From: Syntrophomonadaceae bacterium
Lineage (GTDB): Bacteria; Bacillota; Syntrophomonadia; Syntrophomonadales; DTU052
Direction: 5' to 3'
Length of the DNA: 38,379 nt
NCBI GenBank assembly: GCA_012728655.1
Contig: JAAYEQ010000060.1
Span: 1-38,379, forward strand
The notes under the pieces were generated by a model. That model was given only the letters and a program-made list of their open reading frames with translations. It was not told where the DNA came from and did no database searches. Positions 3,570-29,194 of the stretch are shown one piece after another (the stretch's first letter is position 1; the number at the start of each line of letters is the position of its first letter). A program made the translations under genes and the position numbers.

Positions 3570-4940
3570 TTAACCCTCCATTCTTCTGGCAGCCATATAA
3601 AATGAACACTCCAGACGTTTCTGGTGCATCAGGCAGGCCAGCCGGTGAGGAACCGAAATGTTTCCATTCCGGAAATAGGCCAGGGCGTGACAGCCGCCTC
3701 CACAGTGGAACCTGGCCCAACAGTTGCGGCACTCCTTTTGACTCAGAGTATTGCCCGCAAATCTCCGGCGCACCGAATCATCAACTATTCCTTCCCTGAC
3801 ATTGCCCATTTTAAACTCGGGTATGCCGATGAATTGGTGGCAGGGAAAGATGTCTCCTTCCGGAGTCACCGCCAGGTATTCAATCCCGGCACCGCATCCG
3901 GTTAATCTTTTGGCCAAACACGGCCCGTTAAAATCCAGATTGAAATGGAAGAAATTGAGCTGTCGGCCCTCCTTCTCATGAGCGAGAATTATTTCCGCCA
4001 GTTCTTCATACTGGGCGGCAATCTGCGGCAGGTGTTCTTCGGTTAGGGCAATGCCCGGTTCGCCTCCGGTTACCGGTTCCAAGGAAATATTTTCGAAACC
4101 GAGGCTTGCCAGGTGCAGAAAATCCTCGGTGAAATCCAGATTCTGGGCGGTAAAAGTTCCTCTTATATAATAACTGACCGGATGTGATGCCACCATCGCC
4201 TGAATCCGCGGTACAATCCGCCGGTAAGTTCCTCCCCCGTCGGGAAGGATTCGCATGCGGTCATTAACCTGAGGGCGACCATCCAGACTGAGGATAACGC
4301 CGATCCCCTCGGCTGCCAGGTAATCCCGCACCTGCTCGCCAAGACTCAGAGCATTGGTGGTCAGGGTGAAACTTATTTGTTTCCCCGCTTGTGAAGCACG
4401 GTCCCGGCCATATTGAACCGTGGCCCTGACAACATCCATATTAAGCAGGGGCTCTCCTCCAAAAAAGTCGAGTTCCAGATTCTTTCTCGGACCACTGCTT
4501 TCGATAAGGAAATCAACCGCCTGCCGGGCCACCTCCATATTCATTAATCCCTGGAATTGCCCGAAGCTTCCCTGTTGAGCGAAACAGTATCGACAACGCA
4601 TATTGCAGAGGTGGGCCACATTAAGGCAGATGGATTTGGGAAAGAAACTGCCGTAATCGAAGTCAACCTCCGCCTCTTCGGTGAAAATACTTCCGGCGTG
4701 AAAGGCCTCTTCAATCTCTTTTCCGATTTCCTCTGCTACCTCGGGTGAGTAAGCGGCCGCGGTCCGGCTCAGGGCCAGGTCCCAATCACCTTGATTCCCG
4801 ATTAGCTCCTGAACAAAATAAAAGGTCTGGTCGTCCAGGACATGAACGGCACCTGAGTTGACATCAAGCAAGACGTTAAGGTCTTTCATGCGAAACCGGT
4901 GAATATTGGCCGCAAAGTTATAATGGCGTAAATCGATCAC
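3570..4940 (-). CDS. SCIFF peptide radical SAM maturase (thioether-forming)
   Basis: This 456-residue enzyme is a radical SAM protein with the cluster motif C112-x3-C116-x2-C119. A C-terminal SPASM-like region is rich in cysteines (CGAG, PCHQ, CRNCW, HCGGGC, LAC, LEC), which would hold auxiliary 4Fe-4S clusters. Homologues such as CteB bind the SCIFF precursor through an N-terminal recognition domain and form thioether links from Cys to a partner residue. The precursor gene lies just upstream at 5097-5234, which makes the assignment strong. The start is a GTG at 4940, 7 nt after GGAGG. A perfect 10-bp hairpin separates precursor and enzyme genes. Confidence 0.93.
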   Translation of the reverse strand: MIDLRHYNFAANIHRFRMKDLNVLLDVNSGAVHVLDDQTFYFVQELIGNQGDWDLALSRTAAAYSPEVAEEIGKEIEEAFHAGSIFTEEAEVDFDYGSFFPKSICLNVAHLCNMRCRYCFAQQGSFGQFQGLMNMEVARQAVDFLIESSGPRKNLELDFFGGEPLLNMDVVRATVQYGRDRASQAGKQISFTLTTNALSLGEQVRDYLAAEGIGVILSLDGRPQVNDRMRILPDGGGTYRRIVPRIQAMVASHPVSYYIRGTFTAQNLDFTEDFLHLASLGFENISLEPVTGGEPGIALTEEHLPQIAAQYEELAEIILAHEKEGRQLNFFHFNLDFNGPCLAKRLTGCGAGIEYLAVTPEGDIFPCHQFIGIPEFKMGNVREGIVDDSVRRRFAGNTLSQKECRNCWARFHCGGGCHALAYFRNGNISVPHRLACLMHQKRLECSFYMAARRMEG

Positions 4941-5096: not shown

Positions 5097-5234
5097 TTAT
5101 TTTCTGCAGACCTGATTGCCAACTGTGCATGAGGTCTTGCAGGCGGACTGACATGACGCCTGACACTCTCTGCAATTAGTATCTTTTCCGGTTTTCAGGT
5201 TGGGTTGGATTATTGTCTTTAGGTGTTTGCCCAT
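5097..5234 (-). CDS. SCIFF six-cysteine ranthipeptide precursor
   Basis: This is a small gene of 45 codons. The product has six cysteines at positions 21, 24, 28, 32, 36 and 43 in the segment running from NCREC through QSACKTSC to TVGNQVC, the hallmark of the SCIFF (six Cys in forty-five) family. The N-terminal twenty residues act as leader, and the Cys region is where the adjacent radical SAM maturase makes thioether bridges. The ribosome binding site GAGGAGAG is about 8 nt before the ATG. The gene follows tRNA-Gly by only 51 nt with no clear promoter or terminator between them. The final function of SCIFF peptides is not established. Confidence 0.95.
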   Translation of the reverse strand: MGKHLKTIIQPNLKTGKDTNCRECQASCQSACKTSCTVGNQVCRK

Positions 5235-10501: not shown

Positions 10502-11074
10502 TTAAATCGTAATCACTTTGTCGGCGGCCGCCACCCGTTCCATGATGGAATACATATTGGTTACCTGCCCGACCAGCAGTTGGTTCCTGAGCTGGAAATG
10601 ATCAAGACAGGTCCCGCAGGACAATATCTCCACCCCTGACTGCTCCAATTCCAAGAGGTGATCCAGGACCTCGGAACCCTGCGAGGTTAAAGCCACCCCG
10701 CTGTTAATGAAAATGATGGTTGATATCGTATCCTTCATCTGGGTCATGGTATAAATAAAGCTCTTCATCAGGATCTTCCCCAATGCATCGTCTCCGCGCC
10801 CGACATACTGGCTGGTAACAAGTATAACTCCCTGCATGAATTTTTGCTGATCCGTCCGGCCGGCGCTTTTTTCAATATGAATATGATAGTCATTACCATG
10901 CTGCTCTACTTCAACCGTGTAGCCCATACCCTGGGCCAGTCGGCTGATATTCTCCACCGCAGTCTCATTATCCACCACCGCAGTAACCGGTCCCCCGGCT
11001 TCCAGGGCTTTCCTGGTCAGAATTACCGGTTCAGGACAGGAGAGCCCGCGGGCGTCAACGTGGCCCTGCATCAC
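10502..11074 (-). CDS. yedF: Selenium metabolism protein YedF (TusA-like plus DsrE-like)
   Basis: The 190-residue protein has an N-terminal TusA-like domain with the sulfur/selenium-carrier motif CPEP (about residues 13-16). The C-terminal DsrE-like part contains SCGTCLDHF. The family is found next to selD and is thought to carry or present reduced selenium, though the reaction is unproven. Its start overlaps the selD stop: GTG at 11074 or ATG at 11071 are both possible. The tight coupling to selD supports a role in selenium delivery. Confidence 0.9.
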   Translation of the reverse strand: MMQGHVDARGLSCPEPVILTRKALEAGGPVTAVVDNETAVENISRLAQGMGYTVEVEQHGNDYHIHIEKSAGRTDQQKFMQGVILVTSQYVGRGDDALGKILMKSFIYTMTQMKDTISTIIFINSGVALTSQGSEVLDHLLELEQSGVEILSCGTCLDHFQLRNQLLVGQVTNMYSIMERVAAADKVITI

Positions 11075-12126
11075 CCATCACCCCTTGACACTTTTATGTA
11101 TCCTGTGCCGCCGCCTGTCACTCGCCCGACCATAGTGAGTTCAACCGATCTGCTGCGGGCCAGTTGCTCCAGGTCATGTCTCTTGGCGGCATCAACCGCC
11201 ATTAAAAGACCTCCGGAGGTTTCCGGGGAATACATGAGATCCAGACGGGTGGGTTCAACCTCTCTTGACACCTCTACCCGTCCCTGCAGGTAATCCCGGT
11301 TGGCATAAGCCCCGCCGGGAATAAGTCCCATGGCCGCCAGCTCCTCCACCCCGTTCAGAAGCGGCAGGCAATCCGCCCACAGTTCGATGTGCACCCGGCT
11401 GCCCGCAGCCATTTCCATGGTATGGCCGAGCAAACCGAACCCGGTTATGTCGGTGGCCGCGTTTACCCCTACTTCCATCATGACCTCCCGGGCGGCCTTG
11501 TTCAGTTTGGTCATCGAACGAACCGCCTCCTGTATGAGTTGGGCCGGCGCCATTTCCCCTTTGATGGCGGTGGTTACTATACCGGTTCCCAGGGGTTTGG
11601 TTAGATAAAGGTAATCCCCTACCCTGGCCCCCCGGTTGGACACCACCTTCCGGGGATCGATAATTCCGGTAACAGAGAGGCCGTACTTGGGTTCCTGATC
11701 ATCCACCGAGTGCCCCCCGACCAGCACTGCCCCGGCTTCCTCGATCTTCGAAACCCCTCCTTTGATAATCTCCTGGAGGATGGAAATATCGAGACAATCC
11801 GGAAAGCAGACAATATTCATGGCGGTCAACGGCTCTCCTCCCATAGCGTATACATCGCTTAAGGCGTTGGCTGCGGCTATCTGTCCAAACAGATAAGGAT
11901 CATCCACCATGGGGGTAAAGAAATCGACGGTTTGAATCAGGGCCGTATTTTCCGAAAGCTTAAAAACTCCGGCGTCGTCGGCACCCTCAAACCCTACCAA
12001 CAGCCTGGGGTCCGACCGCAGTTGTATCGCATTCAACACCTGGCTCAGGGTCCCCGGACCCAGTTTGGCCGCTCAACCGGAAGCCCTGACCATCTGGGTC
12101 AATCTGATCTGCTCCCCGGCCATCAT
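11071..12126 (-). CDS. selD: Selenide, water dikinase; selenocysteine-containing (TGA at 12073-12075)
   Basis: SelD makes selenophosphate from selenide and ATP, the selenium donor for tRNA-Sec. The reading frame must be extended past an in-frame TGA. From ATG 12126 the protein reads LTQMVRASG, then TGA, then AAKLGPGTL, which is the usual active-site segment with Sec18 followed by Lys21. The full length is 351 residues; a call starting at GTG 12039 would lose the active site. Later parts show DDAGVF, DFFTPMVDDPYLFG, ANALSDVYAMGG and TDITGFGLLGH. A run of G before the double ATG serves as ribosome binding site. It is placed 14 nt after the M18 peptidase gene and overlaps yedF. Confidence 0.95.
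12048..12061 (-). promoter_or_regulatory. Candidate bacterial SECIS hairpin in selD
   Basis: Eleven nucleotides after the TGA codon the message forms GGGTC-CGGG-GACCC, a 5-bp stem with a G-rich loop inside the coding sequence. Bacterial SelB recognises a short hairpin with exposed G in this distance range from UGA. The flanking bases may extend the stem. Confidence 0.7.
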
Positions 12127-12139
12127 ACTCCCCCCCAAT

Positions 12140-13516
12140 CTATTTAAACTCCTGCATAAATACCCTGTAAGCCTTGTAGGCCGCGTAAATATCCGATTTG
12201 GCCGCTACCTCGAAGGGCGAATGCATCCCCAGCAAGGCCGGCCCGCAGTCCACAACTTCCATCCCGTAGCGGGACAGCAGGTAGGCCACGGTTCCGCCGC
12301 CGCCCTGGTCAACCTTGCCCAATTCCCCAACCTGCCAGGTAACACCGTGGTCGTCAAAAAGCCTGCGGATCCGGGCCAGGTATTCAGGATTGGCATCGTT
12401 GGACTCCACTTTGCCCCTGGAGCCGGTATATTTGGTCAGGGCTACTCCCTGTCCAATAATGGAGGAGTTCCTCATGTCAAAAGCCCCTTCATAATTGGGA
12501 TCCAGAGCTCCATTCACATCGGCTGAGAGAGCATAGGAATTTCGCAAGGCCTGCATGACCTGATAGTAGTCGGCACTGCCCCTCTTGTTCATCAGGTCAA
12601 TCACAGCATTCTCCAGCAGAAAGGAACGCAGTCCGGTATTGCCGACGCTGCCAATCTCCTCTTTGTCGGCAAAAACGCAAATAGCGGTACGGGCGGGCAT
12701 GCCGACATCCAGCAGCGCCCGGAAAGATGTAAATACACAAACCCGGTCATCCTGACCGTAACCCCCGATGAGGCTGCGGTCAAACCCGATCTCCCGGGCC
12801 TTCATCGCCGGTACCATCTGAATCTCGGCGCTGGAAAAATCGTCATCCTCAATATTGTATCTCTCCTGCAAAACCTTTCTAATCGCCGCTTTTATCTTAT
12901 CCTTTTCCGGCCCTGATTCCAGAGGGAGGCTCCCCACCAGGATGTTCAGGTCCTCGCCGGTAATCCCTTCGCTCATCTTTTTCTCCATTTGATCCTTGGC
13001 CAGGTGGATCAAGAGGTCGGTTATCGTGAACACCGGGTCATCCTCGTCTTCCCCGATATTAATCTCAATCTTCTCCCCGCTCTTTTTGACTACTATGCCA
13101 TGCATGGATAGGGGCAGGGCCGTCCATTGGTATTTCTTGATGCCTCCGTAGTAGTGGGTCTTAAAGAGAGCCGCCCCGGCGTCCTCGTACAGGGGAACCG
13201 GCTTGAGGTCCAGTCGCGGGGTATCGGTATGGGAGGCGACAATGTTAAAACCTTCGATAAAAGGTCTCTCCCCGATCACCGCCGCCACCGCCGCCTTACC
13301 TTTATGATCAATGAACACCCGCTGTCCGGGTCGCAGTTCATTCAGGTCCTTCAGGTCCACAAAGTTTTTTTTCTGCAGCTTTTCCTTCAAATATGACACC
13401 GTCTCGCGCTCCGTCTTGGCCCGATTGAGGAATTTGATATACTCTCGACCCAAAGCTTCCATCTCTTGCCTTTCGCTTTCCGAAGCCAACAACCACGCGT
13501 TTCTTTCTCTTTCCAC
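12140..13516 (-). CDS. M18 family aminopeptidase
   Basis: The 458-residue protein is a dinuclear zinc aminopeptidase of family M18. Metal-ligand regions are seen in NIVASHTDTPRLDLK, FADKEEIGSVG and LLGMHSPFEVAAKSD, and the segment GGGGTVAYLLSRYGMEVVDCG matches the family. M18 enzymes remove N-terminal residues from peptides in the cytoplasm as large oligomers. It lies directly upstream of selD, which may share its transcript; no biochemical link to selenium is implied by the sequence. Confidence 0.93.
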   Translation of the reverse strand: MERERNAWLLASESERQEMEALGREYIKFLNRAKTERETVSYLKEKLQKKNFVDLKDLNELRPGQRVFIDHKGKAAVAAVIGERPFIEGFNIVASHTDTPRLDLKPVPLYEDAGAALFKTHYYGGIKKYQWTALPLSMHGIVVKKSGEKIEINIGEDEDDPVFTITDLLIHLAKDQMEKKMSEGITGEDLNILVGSLPLESGPEKDKIKAAIRKVLQERYNIEDDDFSSAEIQMVPAMKAREIGFDRSLIGGYGQDDRVCVFTSFRALLDVGMPARTAICVFADKEEIGSVGNTGLRSFLLENAVIDLMNKRGSADYYQVMQALRNSYALSADVNGALDPNYEGAFDMRNSSIIGQGVALTKYTGSRGKVESNDANPEYLARIRRLFDDHGVTWQVGELGKVDQGGGGTVAYLLSRYGMEVVDCGPALLGMHSPFEVAAKSDIYAAYKAYRVFMQEFK

Positions 13517-14424: not shown

Positions 14425-15096
14425 TTAATGGCGGCCCGGTATATGACTCCCATCACAAAATGGCGGATTGCAGGTTTTGCCGCAACGACATAATACAAAT
14501 CGGTCTGCCTCCGCGATGAGTTCTCCGCCGGGACCAAACACCTGGTTGGGGCCCTCGACAATGAGGGGACCATCTCTAATTACCCGTATCCTCCCGGCCT
14601 TGGACATATCAGTCGTATAATCCTTCGAGCCCGGCCCCCGGGCGAGAGCGGGGTCTACGGAAGAACCTTCCGGCAGACTGTACTGCAATGCTCGACTGGG
14701 ACACTTGTCGATGGTGCGGATGATTTCTTCGGCACTCGCGCCGTTAACATTAACCCAGGGTCTCTTTGAGGTATCAAAAACCTCCGGCAATCCACCCCAG
14801 CATTTGCCGGCATGAGAGCACATCTTGGGATTCCAGTAAACAACGATATCCTTATTCCTGTACTCCTTTACCGTGACCGGCGCTTTGTCACCGGATTGAG
14901 GCACCGCGGTCTCCACCTTGGTAAACATCTCCCGGCCGGCTCCGCAAACCGGGCATGTCCAATCGGGAGGAAGTTCTTCAAAAGGCGTTGAAGCCGGGAT
15001 ACCGCGCTCAGGGTCTCCGACCGCCGGGTCATAAACATACCCGCATACCAAACACTGGTAAGCCCGGTTTCTTTCTGTACCGTTGGTTGTTCCCAT
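14425..15096 (-). CDS. Rubredoxin / 4Fe-4S (Fer4_19) / CDGSH three-domain iron-sulfur protein
   Basis: Three redox modules follow each other in one 223-residue chain. A complete rubredoxin domain has C15-x2-C18 ([10 protein letters not shown]) and C48-x2-C51 (CPVCGAG). A divergent mono-cluster 4Fe-4S domain of the Fer4_19/YjdI type has [17 protein letters not shown] and DKCPSRAL, with cysteines near 93, 99 and 132. A C-terminal CDGSH 2Fe-2S domain has C203, C205, C214 and H218 in [16 protein letters not shown]. The last two domains often occur together; the rubredoxin addition is unusual. The start is set at the ATG 7 nt after GGAGG; ATG at 15114 is an alternative adding six residues. A cytoplasmic electron-transfer role is inferred. 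Confidence 0.9.
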
Positions 15097-15233
15097 CCCC
15101 ATACCTCCAAACATTCAAACCTGGGACTACCGATTTAACGATAAGCCAAACTCGGCGTAATCCATTTACATCATAATCTTACCATATACTGTCTCGAATT
15201 AGTCTAAAAATATCATTGTCAAACCCTGGATAT

Positions 15234-15399: not shown

Positions 15400-15498
15400 T
15401 GGCGGAAGCGTGTGGGAATCGAACCCACCCACCGCAGGGCCACTGCGGCGCAAACTGGATTTGAAGTCCAGGCGACCCACCAGGACCGATCCGCTTCC
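15400..15498 (-). tRNA. selC: tRNA-Sec (UCA)
   Basis: The minus strand encodes a 99-nt selenocysteine tRNA with CCA. It begins GGAAGCGG and ends CGCTTCCGCCA. The anticodon stem-loop TGGACTTCAAATCCA presents TCA, and a long variable arm has a 6-bp stem (CCGCAG/CTGCGG). The T arm is GTGGG-TTCGATT-CCCAC. The first seven acceptor pairs are perfect; the eighth, normally paired in bacterial tRNA-Sec, appears as G opposite A. It lies downstream of the CBS-ACT gene within the same region as selA, selB and selD. Confidence 0.97.
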
Positions 15499-17115: not shown

Positions 17116-19029
17116 TCAGCGTGTTATCCTTATCCGGTTGTCACCAATCCTCTTGGTATATTTAATCCGATCAAAGTATTCCAAGAGAGGTAGGGTAAAC
17201 TTCCTTGAAGTCTCCCATATGTCACGGGCTTCGGCCAGTGACAGCTCTTTCTTTTGGTCAAAGTGCTCGTTTAATCGGCTCCAGGCGAGATCTACCCCCA
17301 AACGAGAATAGTAGACGCCCTCGGCTACCTTGACTATCTGTCCGGATTCCTCCAAATAAGCAATTATCTCTGCAGAATCGTGGGGGGAATCGGCTATTTC
17401 CTCCAGAATCTCTTTCAGTCCGGGCGGCGCCAGGGGATTCTTATTCAGCATTTCCATAACCTTCTCAATAGCCTTCTTGGCATCCTGGTCGGGCGTAGTC
17501 GGAGCGCCGGGAAGCCTGACGTGTTTGGAATCAGCCGATAACACTCCTTTGGCCTCCAAAAGGCTGATCAGGGCATTAAAAACTTTGACCGGGTACTGTT
17601 TGAAGTAGCGGCTGCGCAGTTCTTCCCGGGGGAAACCGGGTCTTAAGGGATACTTTTTGTGCCAATCTTCCAGCATGCTGTTGATGGTCCGGATACTGTG
17701 ATGGATTCCCAAATTGCTGAGGTAGAAGTCCTGGTTCTCAACCTTTAAATGTTCGATTAATCCCTGTTCACGCAGCATGTTTAAAATATCCCGGGTCTCG
17801 ACGGGATCATAACCGATTGCCGCCGCCAGGTCTTCAACTGAGATTATCCGCTCCGGGTGTTTGTTTAATTCCTGCAGGACGACCTCCTCCGGTAGGCCCC
17901 CTTCCTTGACCGCCATCTCCTCCAGGACTGCCTCGTTAAAACGTTTCTGTTTCGAAGGGTGAGGATCAATCACCACTCCACCCCCAATGGTCGTTACGGG
18001 CGAGTAAAAACGGATAACAAAACGATCTCCCCTTGCACAAACCACCGGCTCTTCCATCACTATCTGCACGTATCCATGTTCTCCCGGTTGGAGTTCGTCA
18101 TGATCCAGCAGCACCACCCGGCCCAGGCACTCATCAGTTCCCAGGTGAAACCTCACCCGAGCCCAGTTTTTCAGGGGACGAGGACTGCTCTTCAACAGGC
18201 GCAGATTACCGCTTATACGGTAGGTAGGCCTCAGAAATCCCGGTGCAGCCAGAACATCTCCCCGATGGATATTCGAAGTGTCTACTCCCTGCAGGTTCAC
18301 CGCCACCCTTTGACCGGCCAAAGCTTCCTCCACCTTCTGGTTGTGTACGTGCAGGGTTCTAACCCGCACCGGAATTCCCTGGGGAAGGATCTCCAGGCTG
18401 TCGTTGAGGCGGATGCGCCCTGACCAGAGAGTTCCAGTTACTACCGTACCGAAACCGGTCATAGTAAAAACCCGATCAATGGGCAGGCGAACCGGGCCCA
18501 GCGCCGATTTCTCCTGCACCCGAGCGGAATGTTCCTCGATCAATTTGAGCAGTTCCGGGATGCCCTCTCCTGTCGTCGAGGAAACGGCAATAATCGGCCA
18601 CTCTTTTAGCTCCGTATCCGCCAGGTATTCTTTGACATCATCCTCCACCATCATCAGCCATTCCTCATCCACCAGGTCCTTTTTGGTGATCACTACAATT
18701 CCCTGGTTGATGCCCAGCAGCCGAATGATGTCCATATGTTCTCTGGTTTGAGGCATTATGCCCTCATCGGCCGCAACCACCAGGAGCACCAGGTCCATCC
18801 CGAAAGCTCCCGCCAACATCTGGCGCACGAACCTTTCATGTCCGGGAACATCCACGATGCCGGCCCGCTGACCGCCGGGAAGGGTTAAAGGTGCAAATCC
18901 CAGTTCAATGGATATGCCTCGTTTCTTTTCTTCTTTTAACCGGTCGGTATCAACCCCGGTCATAGCCCGTACCAGGGCGGTTTTGCCATGGTCTATGTGA
19001 CCTGCAGTTCCGATGATTACTCTCTTCAT
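17116..19029 (-). CDS. selB: Selenocysteine-specific elongation factor SelB
   Basis: The 637-residue protein has an EF-Tu-like GTPase domain with [13 protein letters not shown] at about 7-19, [12 protein letters not shown] and TKKD. Two beta-barrel domains follow. The C-terminal half carries winged-helix repeats that bind the SECIS hairpin. SelB brings Sec-tRNA-Sec to UGA codons followed by the hairpin. The length is normal for bacteria. Its ATG overlaps the selA stop (TAATG), which suggests coupled synthesis. It fits with the tRNA-Sec downstream and with the Sec codon in selD. Confidence 0.98.
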
Positions 19030-20426
19030 TAAAGAGCCTCCAGAGCGCGGCGCAGCAGTCCCGGAATCAAATCCGCTTCTCCCGCCTGCAGGGTTCTAAC
19101 ACTTATAATAATGGCACCTTCCTTAATTCTGGGCAATAAAGCCGGTTCAAGAGTACGCAGCCTGTAGACCAACCGCCCGGGATCGAAGCCCAGGGCAATC
19201 TCGACCCCATAACCGGGCAATTCCTGGAGCGGGTAGGCCCCGCCCCCCACCTTGTCCTTTAATTCAATAACCCTCACATCGAGCTGCCCGTCCCAATCCT
19301 GCAGTTCCTCTCTGATTGCCCGGCACAACCCGTCGGCCGTAACTTCCAAATCGGCAGGATCCCGGGTCAGCATATGCAAAACCGGGATCTTGTTTTGAGG
19401 CTCACCGCTCAGGTAACCTCCCAGGACCGCCTCCAAACCGCTGATGGTCAGCTTATCCACTCGTAAAGCCCGCAATAGGTGGTTACGCTTCATGGCATCG
19501 ATCAGGTGTTTTTTGCCCACAATGATTCCGGCCTGGGGACCTCCCAGGAGCTTATCTCCGCTGAAGGTGACCAGATCAACCCCTTCCTTTATGCACTCCT
19601 GAACGGTGGGCTCAGCCTCAAGTCCCCAGGGAGAAAGATCGACAAGACAACCGCTCCCCAGGTCCTGGACCACGGGCAACTCCAACCTGCATCCCAGGCC
19701 AACCAACTCCCTCAGGGGTATCTCATGGGTAAATCCTACAATGCGGTAGTTCGAGGTATGAACCGCCAGAAGCAGGGCGGTATCAGGGGACACAGCCTGT
19801 TCGAAATCCGAAAGGTAGGTTTTATTGGTGGTTCCGACCTCTACCAGTTTGGCTCCGCTCAGGGCCATAATTTCCGGGATGCGAAAAGAGCCGCCAATTT
19901 CCACCAACTGGCCCCGGGAAACAATAACCTCCCGCCCCTTGGCCAGGGTATTGAGGACCAGCAGAACGGCCGCCGCGTTGTTATTAACTACCAATGCTGC
20001 CTCGGCTCCGGTGAGGCTGACAATCATCGATTCCAGATGCTGGTAACGCGATCCGCGTTTCCCCTCTTCCAAATCCATTTCCAGATTGCAGTAGCCCTGA
20101 GCCAAACCTGCAATATGCTCCGCCGTTTCGAGAGAAAGCGGAGCTCGTCCCAGGTTGGTATGCAAGACCACCCCGGTAGCATTAATGACCTTTTTTAAGC
20201 TGCCCTGGTGCAGGGTGTTCAGCCGATGGACAACTTCCACCACCACTCGTTCCCGAGCTTCGTCCCGGGTTAATCGGATGCCGGAACCCATGATTTCAGC
20301 CCTCAGGACGTCCAATTCATCACGCACCGCTTGAACTATCAGATGGCGGGCATATACCTTTTCAAGGCTTTGAATCCTTGAGTCCTTGAGCACCTCATCC
20401 ACCGATGGCAGGTTTTTAAGTTCCAA
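19029..20426 (-). CDS. selA: L-seryl-tRNA(Sec) selenium transferase
   Basis: The 465-residue PLP enzyme converts Ser-tRNA-Sec to Sec-tRNA-Sec with selenophosphate. Family marks include INATGVVLHTNLGRAPLS, LVVNNNAAAVLL and SGDKLLGGPQAG, in which K292 is the likely PLP lysine. The start is TTG, 7 nt after GGGGGG. Only three bases separate it from the transporter gene upstream, and its stop overlaps selB, so the three probably form one transcript. Confidence 0.98.
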   Translation of the reverse strand: MELKNLPSVDEVLKDSRIQSLEKVYARHLIVQAVRDELDVLRAEIMGSGIRLTRDEARERVVVEVVHRLNTLHQGSLKKVINATGVVLHTNLGRAPLSLETAEHIAGLAQGYCNLEMDLEEGKRGSRYQHLESMIVSLTGAEAALVVNNNAAAVLLVLNTLAKGREVIVSRGQLVEIGGSFRIPEIMALSGAKLVEVGTTNKTYLSDFEQAVSPDTALLLAVHTSNYRIVGFTHEIPLRELVGLGCRLELPVVQDLGSGCLVDLSPWGLEAEPTVQECIKEGVDLVTFSGDKLLGGPQAGIIVGKKHLIDAMKRNHLLRALRVDKLTISGLEAVLGGYLSGEPQNKIPVLHMLTRDPADLEVTADGLCRAIREELQDWDGQLDVRVIELKDKVGGGAYPLQELPGYGVEIALGFDPGRLVYRLRTLEPALLPRIKEGAIIISVRTLQAGEADLIPGLLRRALEAL

Positions 20427-25536: not shown

Positions 25537-26682
25537 TTAATACTCGCGGATTATCTCATACAGTGCCGAGATTAATTGGTCAACCTCTTCATGGGTATTG
25601 AAAATGGAGAAACTAACCCGAACCAGGCCTTGTTCCAGCGTGCCCAGGGTTTTGTGCGCCAACGGAGCACAATGAAGACCGGTCCTAACCGCTATCCCGT
25701 ATACCTGATCAAGTATCAACCCAACATCGGAGGAATCAATCCCCTCTATATTAAAGCTGACTACCCCAACCCTGTCTTCCGGGTCCGGTGGGCCATAAAT
25801 ATTGATCCGGCTTATAGCTTCTATTTCTTCCATCAGATGCCGGGTTAGTTCCCGTTCATGAGCGGCTATTTTCTCCAAACCTGTTTCCCGGACGAATTCA
25901 ATTCCGGCTCCCAGGCCCGCAATGCCTACCGTATTCAGGGTTCCCGCTTCGTAACGATCGGGGATAATGTTCGGCATCTCCAGGTTTTCCGATTGGCTGC
26001 CGGTGCCTCCGTATTTGCGGGGCTCCAGCTCAATACCCGGACCCAAATACAGGACCCCGACTCCCGGGGGACCATACAACCCTTTATGACCGGGAAATGC
26101 CAACATGTCCGCCTCTGCTTGGAGCACGTTGACCGGTACTACGCCGGCAGTCTGTGAAGCATCAACCAGGAATCGGATGCCGGCTTTTCTGCACATTCTA
26201 CCTATTTCGACTATGGGCATGATCCCGCCGGTGACGTTTGAAGCATGCAAGATCGCTACCATCCGGGTGTTCTTTTTAATCGCGCGGGCAACATCCTCAG
26301 GGGTAATCATACCCCATTGGTCGGCCTCGACCACCCCCAATTCCACCCCGGTGCGCTTTAAATAATAGGCAGCCCTGGCTACCGCATTGTGCTCCATGCT
26401 GGTAATAACCAGGTGATCACCGGGGCGCAGCCCTCCGAGCAGGGCGAGGTTGAGCGCTTCGGTCGCACTGGATGTGAAAATGATTTCTTCGGGTTTACCG
26501 GCACCTATAAACCTGCATATCTGGTCTCGAACCTCAAGAACCATCCTCCCGGCTTCCAATGCCATCTGGTGGCCTCCGCGTCCGGGATTCGCTGAACAGC
26601 GCTGCAAGAAATCTGCCATCGTCTGCAGTACCCGAGGCGGTTTGGGGTAGCTGGTGGCGGCATTGTCAAAGTAAATAACCAC
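25537..26682 (-). CDS. Class V aminotransferase, cysteine desulfurase family (EF2568 type)
   Basis: The 381-residue PLP protein begins VIYFDNAATSYPKPP, has FPGHKGLYGPPGVGVLY with the PLP lysine, and VRTGLHCAPLAHKTLGT with the catalytic cysteine. This pattern is that of the EF2568-type cysteine desulfurase family, distinct from IscS and SufS. Such proteins often co-occur with selD and yedF and are proposed to supply sulfur or selenium. The ORF is open to 26709, but the GTG at 26682 lies 9 nt after GGGAGG and gives the family-length N-terminus. It stands alone between the parS region and convergent larC. Confidence 0.9.
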   Translation of the reverse strand: MVIYFDNAATSYPKPPRVLQTMADFLQRCSANPGRGGHQMALEAGRMVLEVRDQICRFIGAGKPEEIIFTSSATEALNLALLGGLRPGDHLVITSMEHNAVARAAYYLKRTGVELGVVEADQWGMITPEDVARAIKKNTRMVAILHASNVTGGIMPIVEIGRMCRKAGIRFLVDASQTAGVVPVNVLQAEADMLAFPGHKGLYGPPGVGVLYLGPGIELEPRKYGGTGSQSENLEMPNIIPDRYEAGTLNTVGIAGLGAGIEFVRETGLEKIAAHERELTRHLMEEIEAISRINIYGPPDPEDRVGVVSFNIEGIDSSDVGLILDQVYGIAVRTGLHCAPLAHKTLGTLEQGLVRVSFSIFNTHEEVDQLISALYEIIREY

Positions 26683-26830
26683 AATCTTTATCCTCCCATG
26701 CATCCGCACTTGTTTTCAAATCACGTACGATTAAAAAATCAGGCCGTCATTCAATGATGCTTTTGGTCATACACAGTTGGCACATTCTGAAATCAGCCTC
26801 GAATCCTTTATATGATAGTAGCATTTCCCG

Positions 26831-26846
26831 TGTTTCACGTGAAACA
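26831..26846. promoter_or_regulatory. parS centromere site 1
   Basis: The sequence TGTTTCACGTGAAACA is an exact 16-bp match to the ParB-binding palindrome of bacterial chromosomes. The parB gene lies nearby. Confidence 0.95.
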
Positions 26847-27580
26847 ATTCAACCCTCCAAATCTCGCGGAACGGTAATGTTATATCCTCGTATAAAATCG
26901 CCATAATCGGCAAAGTCAACCTTGATAATCTTTCGAAACGTTCAATTTTCCGGCGTAAGTATTTATAATTATCCTTTCTGCAATAGCATATGATTCTAAC
27001 GGATGCGGGTAATTTAAGTCAACGCCTCAGCTACGGAACCGTTGGTTACCTGCGCGTGAATGAAAATGGCCGTCGGAGGAGGTTGGAGTTGATACGTCGA
27101 TTCCTATTCCGGAGCTACAATACTAAGCTCGGTTTCACGAAAACCGAAAACACTATCCGGGACACAAAACATCATTAAGGGGTTAAACCCATACTTTTTA
27201 ACAACGGATGTCCGGTAAAGTTCCAGGCAGGCTGCCACTGGTCTCAATACTTGAAATCAAGAAGAGGTAAGCAGGACATGGATCAGATCATACATCAATT
27301 GAACCCAAGCTTCTTGAACAATGAAAACTTACGTTGAATCGTCTCTTCTTCTGAAATAGGAAAAGTGTTTGCCGCCTATCGGTCTGGGTTTGAATTGTCT
27401 GCAGGTTTGTCTTCCGTATTATTGTTGGATTGAAGTTGTTTTTTACTGCAATCGGCCGGGAATTGCCGCTCGTGCCTGATACGTCTGAGGTTGGGGAGTA
27501 ACGCTCTCCATTAATAATTACTGTTTTGGCTCTCCAAAACCCGTCGGTTCATGGAGCTTCTAAGCCCACCAGATTCAAAA

Positions 27581-27600: not shown

Positions 27601-28437
27601 TTACAGCAGCCCCAAAACCTCCATTATCCGGTTAAGTTCCTCATCATCGTTAAAATGTACCTCTATTTTCCCTCCCTTTTTCTGTTTGATCACCTTTACC
27701 CGGGTGTTCAGCAATTCTTCAAACTTGTGTTCAACCATGAGGAGGTTGGGATCCTTCTTTTTTCCATCACCCTTACTGGTTGTTCGTTCCCTGGCGCCCG
27801 CATCTTCAGTATCCCTAACGGTCATTCCCTGCTGTATAATCTTTTGGGCAAGGGCCACCTGTTGTTCTGTCTCTTTAAGGGCAAGAATTGCTCGAGCATG
27901 GCCGGCGGTGAGTTGACCTGTCTTTACCAATTCCTTTACTTCCGCAGGCAGGTTTAGCAATCGAACGGTATTGGCTACATAGGCACGGCTTTTTCCTATT
28001 TTGCGGGCCAGTTCCTCCTGAGTGTAGCCAAACCGGTCCATCATCTCCCGATACGCGGCGGCCTCGTCAACGGGGTTGAGGTTTTCCCGCTGCAGGTTTT
28101 CAATCAATGCCGCCTCCCATGTCTCGGGTTCCTCCATTTCCCTTATGACCACCGGCACCTTCTTCAATCCGGCCAGTACCGCAGCTCGCAGACGGCGTTC
28201 TCCAGCGACCAATTCATATTTCCCGTTATCAAGCGGGCGTACCAGCAAGGGCTGGAGAACCCCATGCTGTCTTATAGAATCTGCCATTTCCTTAATGGTT
28301 TCGTCATTAAACACCTGGCGTGGTTGATTATCTCTAACTACTATTTCCTCCAGGCTGATTTCGTTACCGGGTTCGCCCAGGCTCTCACCGCTTGAAAACA
28401 GAGCATCCAAACCCTTCCCCAAAACACGTTTACTCAC
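27601..28437 (-). CDS. parB: Chromosome-partitioning protein ParB (Spo0J)
   Basis: The 278-residue protein starts SKRVLGKGLDALF, then has the CTPase region with GERRLRAAVLAGLKKVPVVIRE and ENLQRENLNPVDEAAAY, and the helix-turn-helix region (YTQEELARKIGKSRAYVANTVRLLNLP). It binds parS and slides as a clamp to load condensin near the origin. The GTG at 28437 overlaps the parA stop and gives the family N-terminus; the longer ORF to 28533 is rejected. Two parS sites lie just downstream. Confidence 0.97.
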   Translation of the reverse strand: MSKRVLGKGLDALFSSGESLGEPGNEISLEEIVVRDNQPRQVFNDETIKEMADSIRQHGVLQPLLVRPLDNGKYELVAGERRLRAAVLAGLKKVPVVIREMEEPETWEAALIENLQRENLNPVDEAAAYREMMDRFGYTQEELARKIGKSRAYVANTVRLLNLPAEVKELVKTGQLTAGHARAILALKETEQQVALAQKIIQQGMTVRDTEDAGARERTTSKGDGKKKDPNLLMVEHKFEELLNTRVKVIKQKKGGKIEVHFNDDEELNRIMEVLGLL

Positions 28438-29194
28438 GTTCCAACACTTCCCTGGCCAATTCTTGGTATACCTCCGCTCCCTTTGATTTTGGATCGTATA
28501 ATACGATGGGCTTACCGAAACTGGGAGCCTCACTTAATCGAACATTCCGCGGTATTATTGTTCGGTACAGTTCTTTTTTGAAATGACGTTTTACTTCGTC
28601 AACTACCTGTATTGACAAATTGGTGCGGCCATCGAACATGGTTAAAAGAATGCCCTCGATTTTCAATTCCGGGTTCAGCCTTCTCCTGATTAAGAATATG
28701 GTGTGCATGAGTTGGCTTAACCCCTCAAGCGCATAGTATTCGCACTGGATAGGAATCAAAACAGAATCGGCGGCGCACAGGGCATTGACGGTGGCAAGTC
28801 CCAGAGACGGGGGGCAGTCAATGATTATGTAGTCATAATTATCGTGCAGGGGGTCGATTTTTTCCTTTAAGCGGGTTTCCCGCTTTTCCAATGTCGCCAG
28901 CTCCACCTCGGCACCAGCCAACTGTATGGTAGCGGGAATCAAATCAAGATTACGAATGCCGGTATGAATTATCGCTTCCTGTGGGTCAACCCCTCTTATA
29001 AGTATATCGTAAATGCATGTTTTCAACCGGGACCGGTCTACGCCCAATCCGCTGCTGCAGTTGCCCTGGGGATCAATATCAACCAGCAGTACGCGTTTTC
29101 CCAACATTGCCAGACAGCAACCGAGATTTATCGCGGTGGTGGTCTTACCAACGCCCCCTTTTTGATTGGCAACCGCCATCACTTTCGCCGCCAT
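28430..29194 (-). CDS. parA: Chromosome-partitioning ATPase ParA (Soj)
   Basis: The 254-residue protein has the deviant Walker A NQKGGVGKTTTAINLG, VDIDPQGNCSSGLG and YIIIDCPPSLG. It is a nucleoid-binding ATPase that works with ParB in origin segregation and, in sporeformers, affects DnaA activity. The start has AGAGGTG a few bases before the ATG. The 3' end overlaps parB, so the pair is translationally coupled. Confidence 0.98.
   Translation of the reverse strand: MAAKVMAVANQKGGVGKTTTAINLGCCLAMLGKRVLLVDIDPQGNCSSGLGVDRSRLKTCIYDILIRGVDPQEAIIHTGIRNLDLIPATIQLAGAEVELATLEKRETRLKEKIDPLHDNYDYIIIDCPPSLGLATVNALCAADSVLIPIQCEYYALEGLSQLMHTIFLIRRRLNPELKIEGILLTMFDGRTNLSIQVVDEVKRHFKKELYRTIIPRNVRLSEAPSFGKPIVLYDPKSKGAEVYQELAREVLERE

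Follow-up and report, generated by a model that had tools for sequence, protein, structure and literature searches.

The question raised by this locus is whether an apparently truncated selD gene on the minus strand is in fact an intact selenoprotein gene whose start is concealed by an in-frame stop codon. In the window, i.e. the whole stretch of 38,379 nucleotides analysed here, a mechanical list of open reading frames offers a shortened SelD-like protein that starts at GTG 12039. Translation of the window, on the other hand, gives a full-length SelD frame at 12126-11071 on the minus strand, with one in-frame TGA. The best explanation, to which we assign a probability of roughly 97%, is that this selD, of which no other copy was found in the genome, is an intact selenoprotein gene in which the UGA at codon 18 is read as selenocysteine (Sec) in the active site. 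The original prediction had also read the gene as a Sec-type selD, and this reading was supported by the family matches, the alignment with a catalytic Cys, the presence of TGA in relatives, a SECIS-type hairpin, the Sec machinery and other Sec-type genes in the genome. The features of the locus are listed in Table 1.

Table 1. Coordinates of selD and of the associated features within the window
Feature	Position	Strand	Basis or remark
selD, selenide, water dikinase (selenophosphate synthetase)	11071..12126	-	351 aa, predicted Sec at residue 18
In-frame TGA, codon 18, U-A-A-K	12073..12075	-	Catalytic position, predicted selenocysteine
Predicted SECIS apical hairpin GGGUC-CGGG-GACCC	12048..12061	-	Geometry, energy, silent-base covariation
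Mechanical ORF from GTG 12039	11071..12039	-	322 aa, without residue 18; mis-start of selD
yedF	10502..11071	-	TIGR03527, 213.5 bits (cut-off 110)
Aminopeptidase, directly upstream of selD	12140..13516	-	NF002600, 682.6 bits (cut-off 529)
selC, tRNA-Sec, anticodon TCA	15400..15498	-	ARAGORN; RF01852, 72.7 bits
selB, Sec-specific elongation factor	17116..19029	-	TIGR00475, 383.4 bits (cut-off 242.25)
selA, seryl-tRNA(Sec) selenium transferase	19029..20426	-	TIGR00474, 574 bits (cut-off 267.9)
Cysteine desulfurase family protein	25537..26709	-	TIGR01977, 483.3 bits (cut-off 377)

Read on the minus strand from the ATG at 12126, the gene begins MMAGEQIRLTQMVRASG-TGA-AAKLGPGTLSQV... and ends with a TGA stop at 11073-11071. 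The residues around codon 18 are LTQMVRASG-TGA-AAKLGPGTL, and no further stop was found inside the frame when 12126-11071 was translated; the in-frame TGA at 12075-12073 and the coordinates that had been predicted for the gene were correct. The read-through protein matched the SelD model TIGR00476 with 394.1 bits (cut-off 125) over positions 1-309 of the 311 in the profile, and NF002098 with 342.5 bits (cut-off 299). When it was aligned to Cys-type SelD, as the original prediction had proposed, with residue 18 entered as C in place of U, residue 18 fell on the Cys and Lys21 on the Lys of the solved structures PDB 2yye and 3u0o (SGCAAK / AGCGCK). The sequence U18-A-A-K21 agrees with UxxK, the form in which a passage of a 2026 review gives the Sec motif of the SelD family (PMC13188914). 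A scan of both strands of the window for TGA codons inside long frames (open for 15 or more codons before the TGA and 100 or more after it, or for 100 and 40 codons, respectively) returned 28 places. Judged by eye, only at 12075 does reading through the TGA give a recognised protein back its missing start; given the length thresholds, the scan could miss a Sec codon close to the C-terminus of a short protein.

An in-frame TGA could also result from an error in sequencing or from a nonsense mutation in a Cys-type selD. The window is a single contig in a draft assembly of 79, and Cys-type SelD is described as common elsewhere in the part of the literature considered here (PMC4561486), both of which would favour such an explanation. 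However, the remaining selD frame is open and scores above the SelD cut-offs, and relatives keep the TGA. A protein search found SelD in 59 of the 63 genomes of the same order, and codon 18 was TGA in all 57 of those in which it could be read, with Cys at this codon absent from every one of these 57; in the other two (G012 and G057) the contigs do not cover codon 18. If only the best match is taken, TGA is found in 55/59 genomes and at 58/63 loci, some genomes having two loci; in G011 (L054) and G007 (L060) codon 18 was read from a second piece, and it was TGA in both. The three other genomes of the same genus all have TGA at codon 18 (79-90% identity). Since the codon is TGA in 57/57 readable genomes of the order, it is not a read error, and the explanation by error or nonsense mutation was rejected as highly improbable.

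The same codon was examined on contigs of named genomes, where 55 SelD loci gave 53 TGA and two Cys codons, in a set that was recruited by similarity to a Sec-type query, shares some contigs with the order set and does not amount to a census. The loci closest to that of the window are on a Bacillota MAG contig (L064, 90%) and on two Syntrophothermus sp. MAG contigs (L065, 89%; L066, 79%), so that the window comes from a close relative of Syntrophothermus, a genus that NCBI assigns to Syntrophomonadaceae. The two Cys-type loci, with TGT (L097) and TGC (L101), are both more distant, and as they have Cys there, Sec is not obligatory in the SelD family. Within the order, two divergent Sec-type SelD copies were also seen, L058 in G038 (44% identity) and L055 in G051 (53%); G051 has two SelD matches, with TGA in both. 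Transfer or assembly contamination are possible origins of these divergent copies.

A second alternative is that GTG 12039 is the true start and that the gene encodes a shortened, non-catalytic SelD-like protein. This is the result of the mechanical ORF list, and a 322-aa product of this kind would lose the active site, as had been anticipated for a gene call from 12039. Against it, relatives retain the block TQMVRASG-U-AAKLGPGTL, located upstream of 12039, in the same reading frame, and in alignments with solved SelD structures this block corresponds to the N-terminal loop. Furthermore, the genome contains selA, selB, tRNA-Sec and additional genes of the Sec type, so that a working SelD is needed, and this is the sole selD found in it. 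We rejected this start as very unlikely on the basis of the conserved upstream block and its alignment with solved SelD; the ORF at 11071-12039 is a mis-start and not the actual selD gene.

The statement that this is the sole selD rests on a search of the organism's own genome (79-contig draft assembly, 96% complete), in which a single match and no second selD was found; a second intact copy elsewhere, with this one decayed, was one of the two findings named in the original prediction as speaking against a Sec-type selD here. Other Sec-type genes were recognised in the same genome. The formate dehydrogenase alpha subunit FdhA on contig 44 has TGA in ARL-U-HSVT and scores over its cut-off (927 bits). 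On contig 16 (L130), FlpD has TGA in LVSG-U-HPGDCHY at nt 1678, and beside it an HdrA-like gene, seen as a fragment for which the best models were not reached at full cut-off, has TGA at nt 74 in DCSA-U-ISTPKM. A tRNA selenouridine synthase was also found over its cut-off (351.2 bits). The genome therefore carries several genes of the Sec type, with FdhA, FlpD and the HdrA-like gene among them, and, as it also encodes a selenouridine synthase, selenophosphate has two or more uses in this organism. A Sec-type formate dehydrogenase is mentioned in a portion of Syntrophothermus-related literature (PMC13422317). Two further frames, L125 (G000 contig 30) and L126 (G003 contig 177), are FdhA-like with a profile match only from position 224 and a TGA near the start, with the same layout of frames around them in both genomes; they look like half of an FdhA gene without the Sec region.

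For UGA to be read as Sec in bacteria, a SECIS hairpin would be expected shortly after it. The published geometry, as given in a section of PMC13188914, is a stem of 4-16 bp, a loop of 3-9 nt with G in the first two loop bases, a UGA-to-loop distance of 16-37 nt and a free energy no higher than -7.5 kcal/mol. The predicted hairpin in selD has a 5-bp stem and the loop CGGG, with the stem starting 11 nt and the loop 16 nt after the UGA, and lies within the published limits on stem length, loop size, loop G and spacing. Its energy is -6.6 kcal/mol bare and -7.8 kcal/mol with flanking bases, on either side of the published limit of -7.5. A hairpin within the SECIS geometry was present in 109/109 Sec-type rows (100 of them distinct), compared with a mean of 64.6/109 in shuffled sequences (51-74; 50 base shuffles), and as shuffles reach this mean, geometry alone discriminates weakly. 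In free folding, four stretches around the UGA were no more stable than their shuffled versions (z 0.52, -0.78, -0.12 and 0.27), and minimum-energy folds of 34 bases or more add or prefer pairs other than those of the hairpin. In a mutual-information ranking of the 100 distinct rows the hairpin pairs were not on top, with hand-listed pairs that are one base out of register here; L115, which contains N, was excluded from this ranking and from the hairpin counts over all loci.

Silent-base covariation is better evidence for the predicted SECIS element than hairpin geometry, as judged from the aligned sequences. Across the relatives in the order set, the Gly codon of KIGP/KLGP/KMGP has a silent third base that tracks its pairing partner in the hairpin. 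This third base is T in 26/29 rows when the later codon starts with AC (Thr), the three exceptions all being G; it is G in 16/16 rows when that codon starts with GC (Ala) and A in 2/2 rows when it starts with GT (Val), and one Gly row has T with a later codon starting with GA. The Thr codon (ACC) moves the register of the stem by one base relative to the Ala and Val codons (GCC/GTC), and in all three main classes the silent Gly base fits the stem. The order set comprised 56 of the 63 loci, with two duplicates and L054, L056, L057, L060 and L061, where the best match ends before residue 18, taken out, and 48 of the 56 rows were used for the Gly test after exclusion of eight without a GGN codon at the site.

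In these 48 rows the mean stem length was 5.58, compared with a shuffled mean of 4.99, and 0/2000 shuffles reached 5.58, in a test that was designed after the pattern was seen and so was not blind. The shuffles preserve protein sequence and base composition but ignore how the rows are related, and the test was therefore rerun on collapsed sets. The observed mean stem was reached by 0/2000 shuffles when the order set was collapsed to 31 rows (27 used) and by 19/2000 when it was collapsed to 9 rows (7 used). With all loci, 0/2000 shuffles reached it in each of the sets of 100 rows (84 used), 62 rows (50 used) and 26 rows (18 used). The remaining alternative, that TGA is reassigned genome-wide to another residue and is not recoded to Sec here, was rejected as the least probable of all, with no point found in its support and with selD and selB themselves ending in TGA, the sole TCA-anticodon tRNA within the window being tRNA-Sec and a SECIS-type hairpin following the TGA.

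The original prediction had placed selD next to selA, selB, yedF and tRNA-Sec. This is true of yedF, the ATG of which overlaps the selD stop by one base (TGATG), whereas the distances from the selD start to tRNA-Sec, selB and selA, all upstream of it, are about 3.3, 5.0 and 6.9 kb. Other genes lie between these and selD, and all of these Sec genes are on the same strand as selD. In the genomes of the same family (L002-L006), yedF begins at most 11 bases from the end of the selD match in 5/5 cases. At the order loci it was detected in 11/63, at L055 on the opposite strand, and because most loci have about 1.5 kb of flank and a plain tblastn search was used, its absence is weak evidence. The aminopeptidase lies upstream of selD at 54/63 order loci; six of the nine loci without it have fewer than 200 bases upstream, and the other three (L031, L055 and L058) have flank yet lack it.

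The cysteine desulfurase family protein in the window reached 348.8 bits with the model for the selenocysteine lyase SclA, below the cut-off of 525, and we only infer that it may act as a selenium supplier. Between its gene and a gene at 27601-28533 there is a stretch of about 0.8 kb (26710-27525) in which neither strand has an ORF of at least 80 aa. Just downstream of tRNA-Sec, a single protein (14425-15114, minus strand) carries rubredoxin, divergent 4Fe-4S mono-cluster and CDGSH iron-sulfur domains in series, and is also present in L064 (90%) and L065 (86%). Elsewhere in the window (3570-4940 and 5097-5234, minus strand), a SCIFF ranthipeptide (TIGR03973, 65.9 bits) and a radical SAM maturase (TIGR03974, 509.8 bits), both above cut-off, form a known pair.

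SelD was listed among 25 known bacterial selenoprotein families, with FdhA and SelD as the most widespread, in the portion of Zhang 2006 drawn on here (PMC1794560), which also names SelD as one of the selenoproteins that Syntrophomonas wolfei has; the relatives from the order with TGA at codon 18 include Syntrophomonas contigs. The original prediction's remark that the Sec-containing type of SelD is not new agrees with these excerpts. The selD of the window shares with known Sec-type SelD (TIGR00476; listed for S. wolfei in the same excerpts) the family, the catalytic position and UxxK, and also the downstream hairpin and the genomic Sec machinery; the only differences found were ordinary sequence divergence and the local gene order, with yedF overlapping the selD stop. 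PDB 3u0o and 2yye belong to the same SelD family and are alignable over about 330 residues, but have Cys where the SelD of the window has a predicted Sec. A genomic link between YedF and SelD has been published, and YedF function is described as unknown in a passage of that source (PMC5322559); here YedF (TIGR03527) is encoded by a separate gene directly downstream of selD and scores above cut-off. The selD of the window is thus an ordinary Sec-type SelD of an already known type, and the reasoning is not new either.

With UGA read as Sec, expression of selD would proceed by the established pathway. The ribosome would start at ATG 12126 and meet the UGA at codon 18, where SelB and Sec-tRNA(Sec), guided by the SECIS hairpin just downstream, would insert selenocysteine. 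The Sec18-x-x-Lys21 loop would then contribute to the synthesis of selenophosphate from selenide and ATP, as pathway knowledge suggests, and the selenophosphate would be passed to Sec-tRNA by SelA and to modified tRNA by the selenouridine synthase. As the selenophosphate made by SelD feeds Sec-tRNA synthesis, SelD depends on its own product, which is a known curiosity and not new. This circle is presumably kept going by inherited SelD or selenophosphate.

There is also a slight possibility that the UGA at codon 18 gates expression of selD and yedF according to selenium supply, so that selenium use would limit itself as in a switch. When Sec-tRNA is short, ribosomes would end at codon 18, and SelD and YedF could both be lowered, given the one-base overlap between the stop of selD and the start of yedF. 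The UGA and this overlap are observed, and coupling between the two genes is hypothetical.

To summarise, the UGA at codon 18 is most probably read as selenocysteine in an intact selD. In the Sec-type SelD set of the order, the predicted SECIS stem shifts register by one base with the amino acid that it must encode. The value of the finding is mainly for annotation, because the mechanical ORF from GTG 12039 loses the active site, and a gene call from there would give databases a SelD without its catalytic residue. The start of selD belongs at 12126, with codon 18 marked as Sec.
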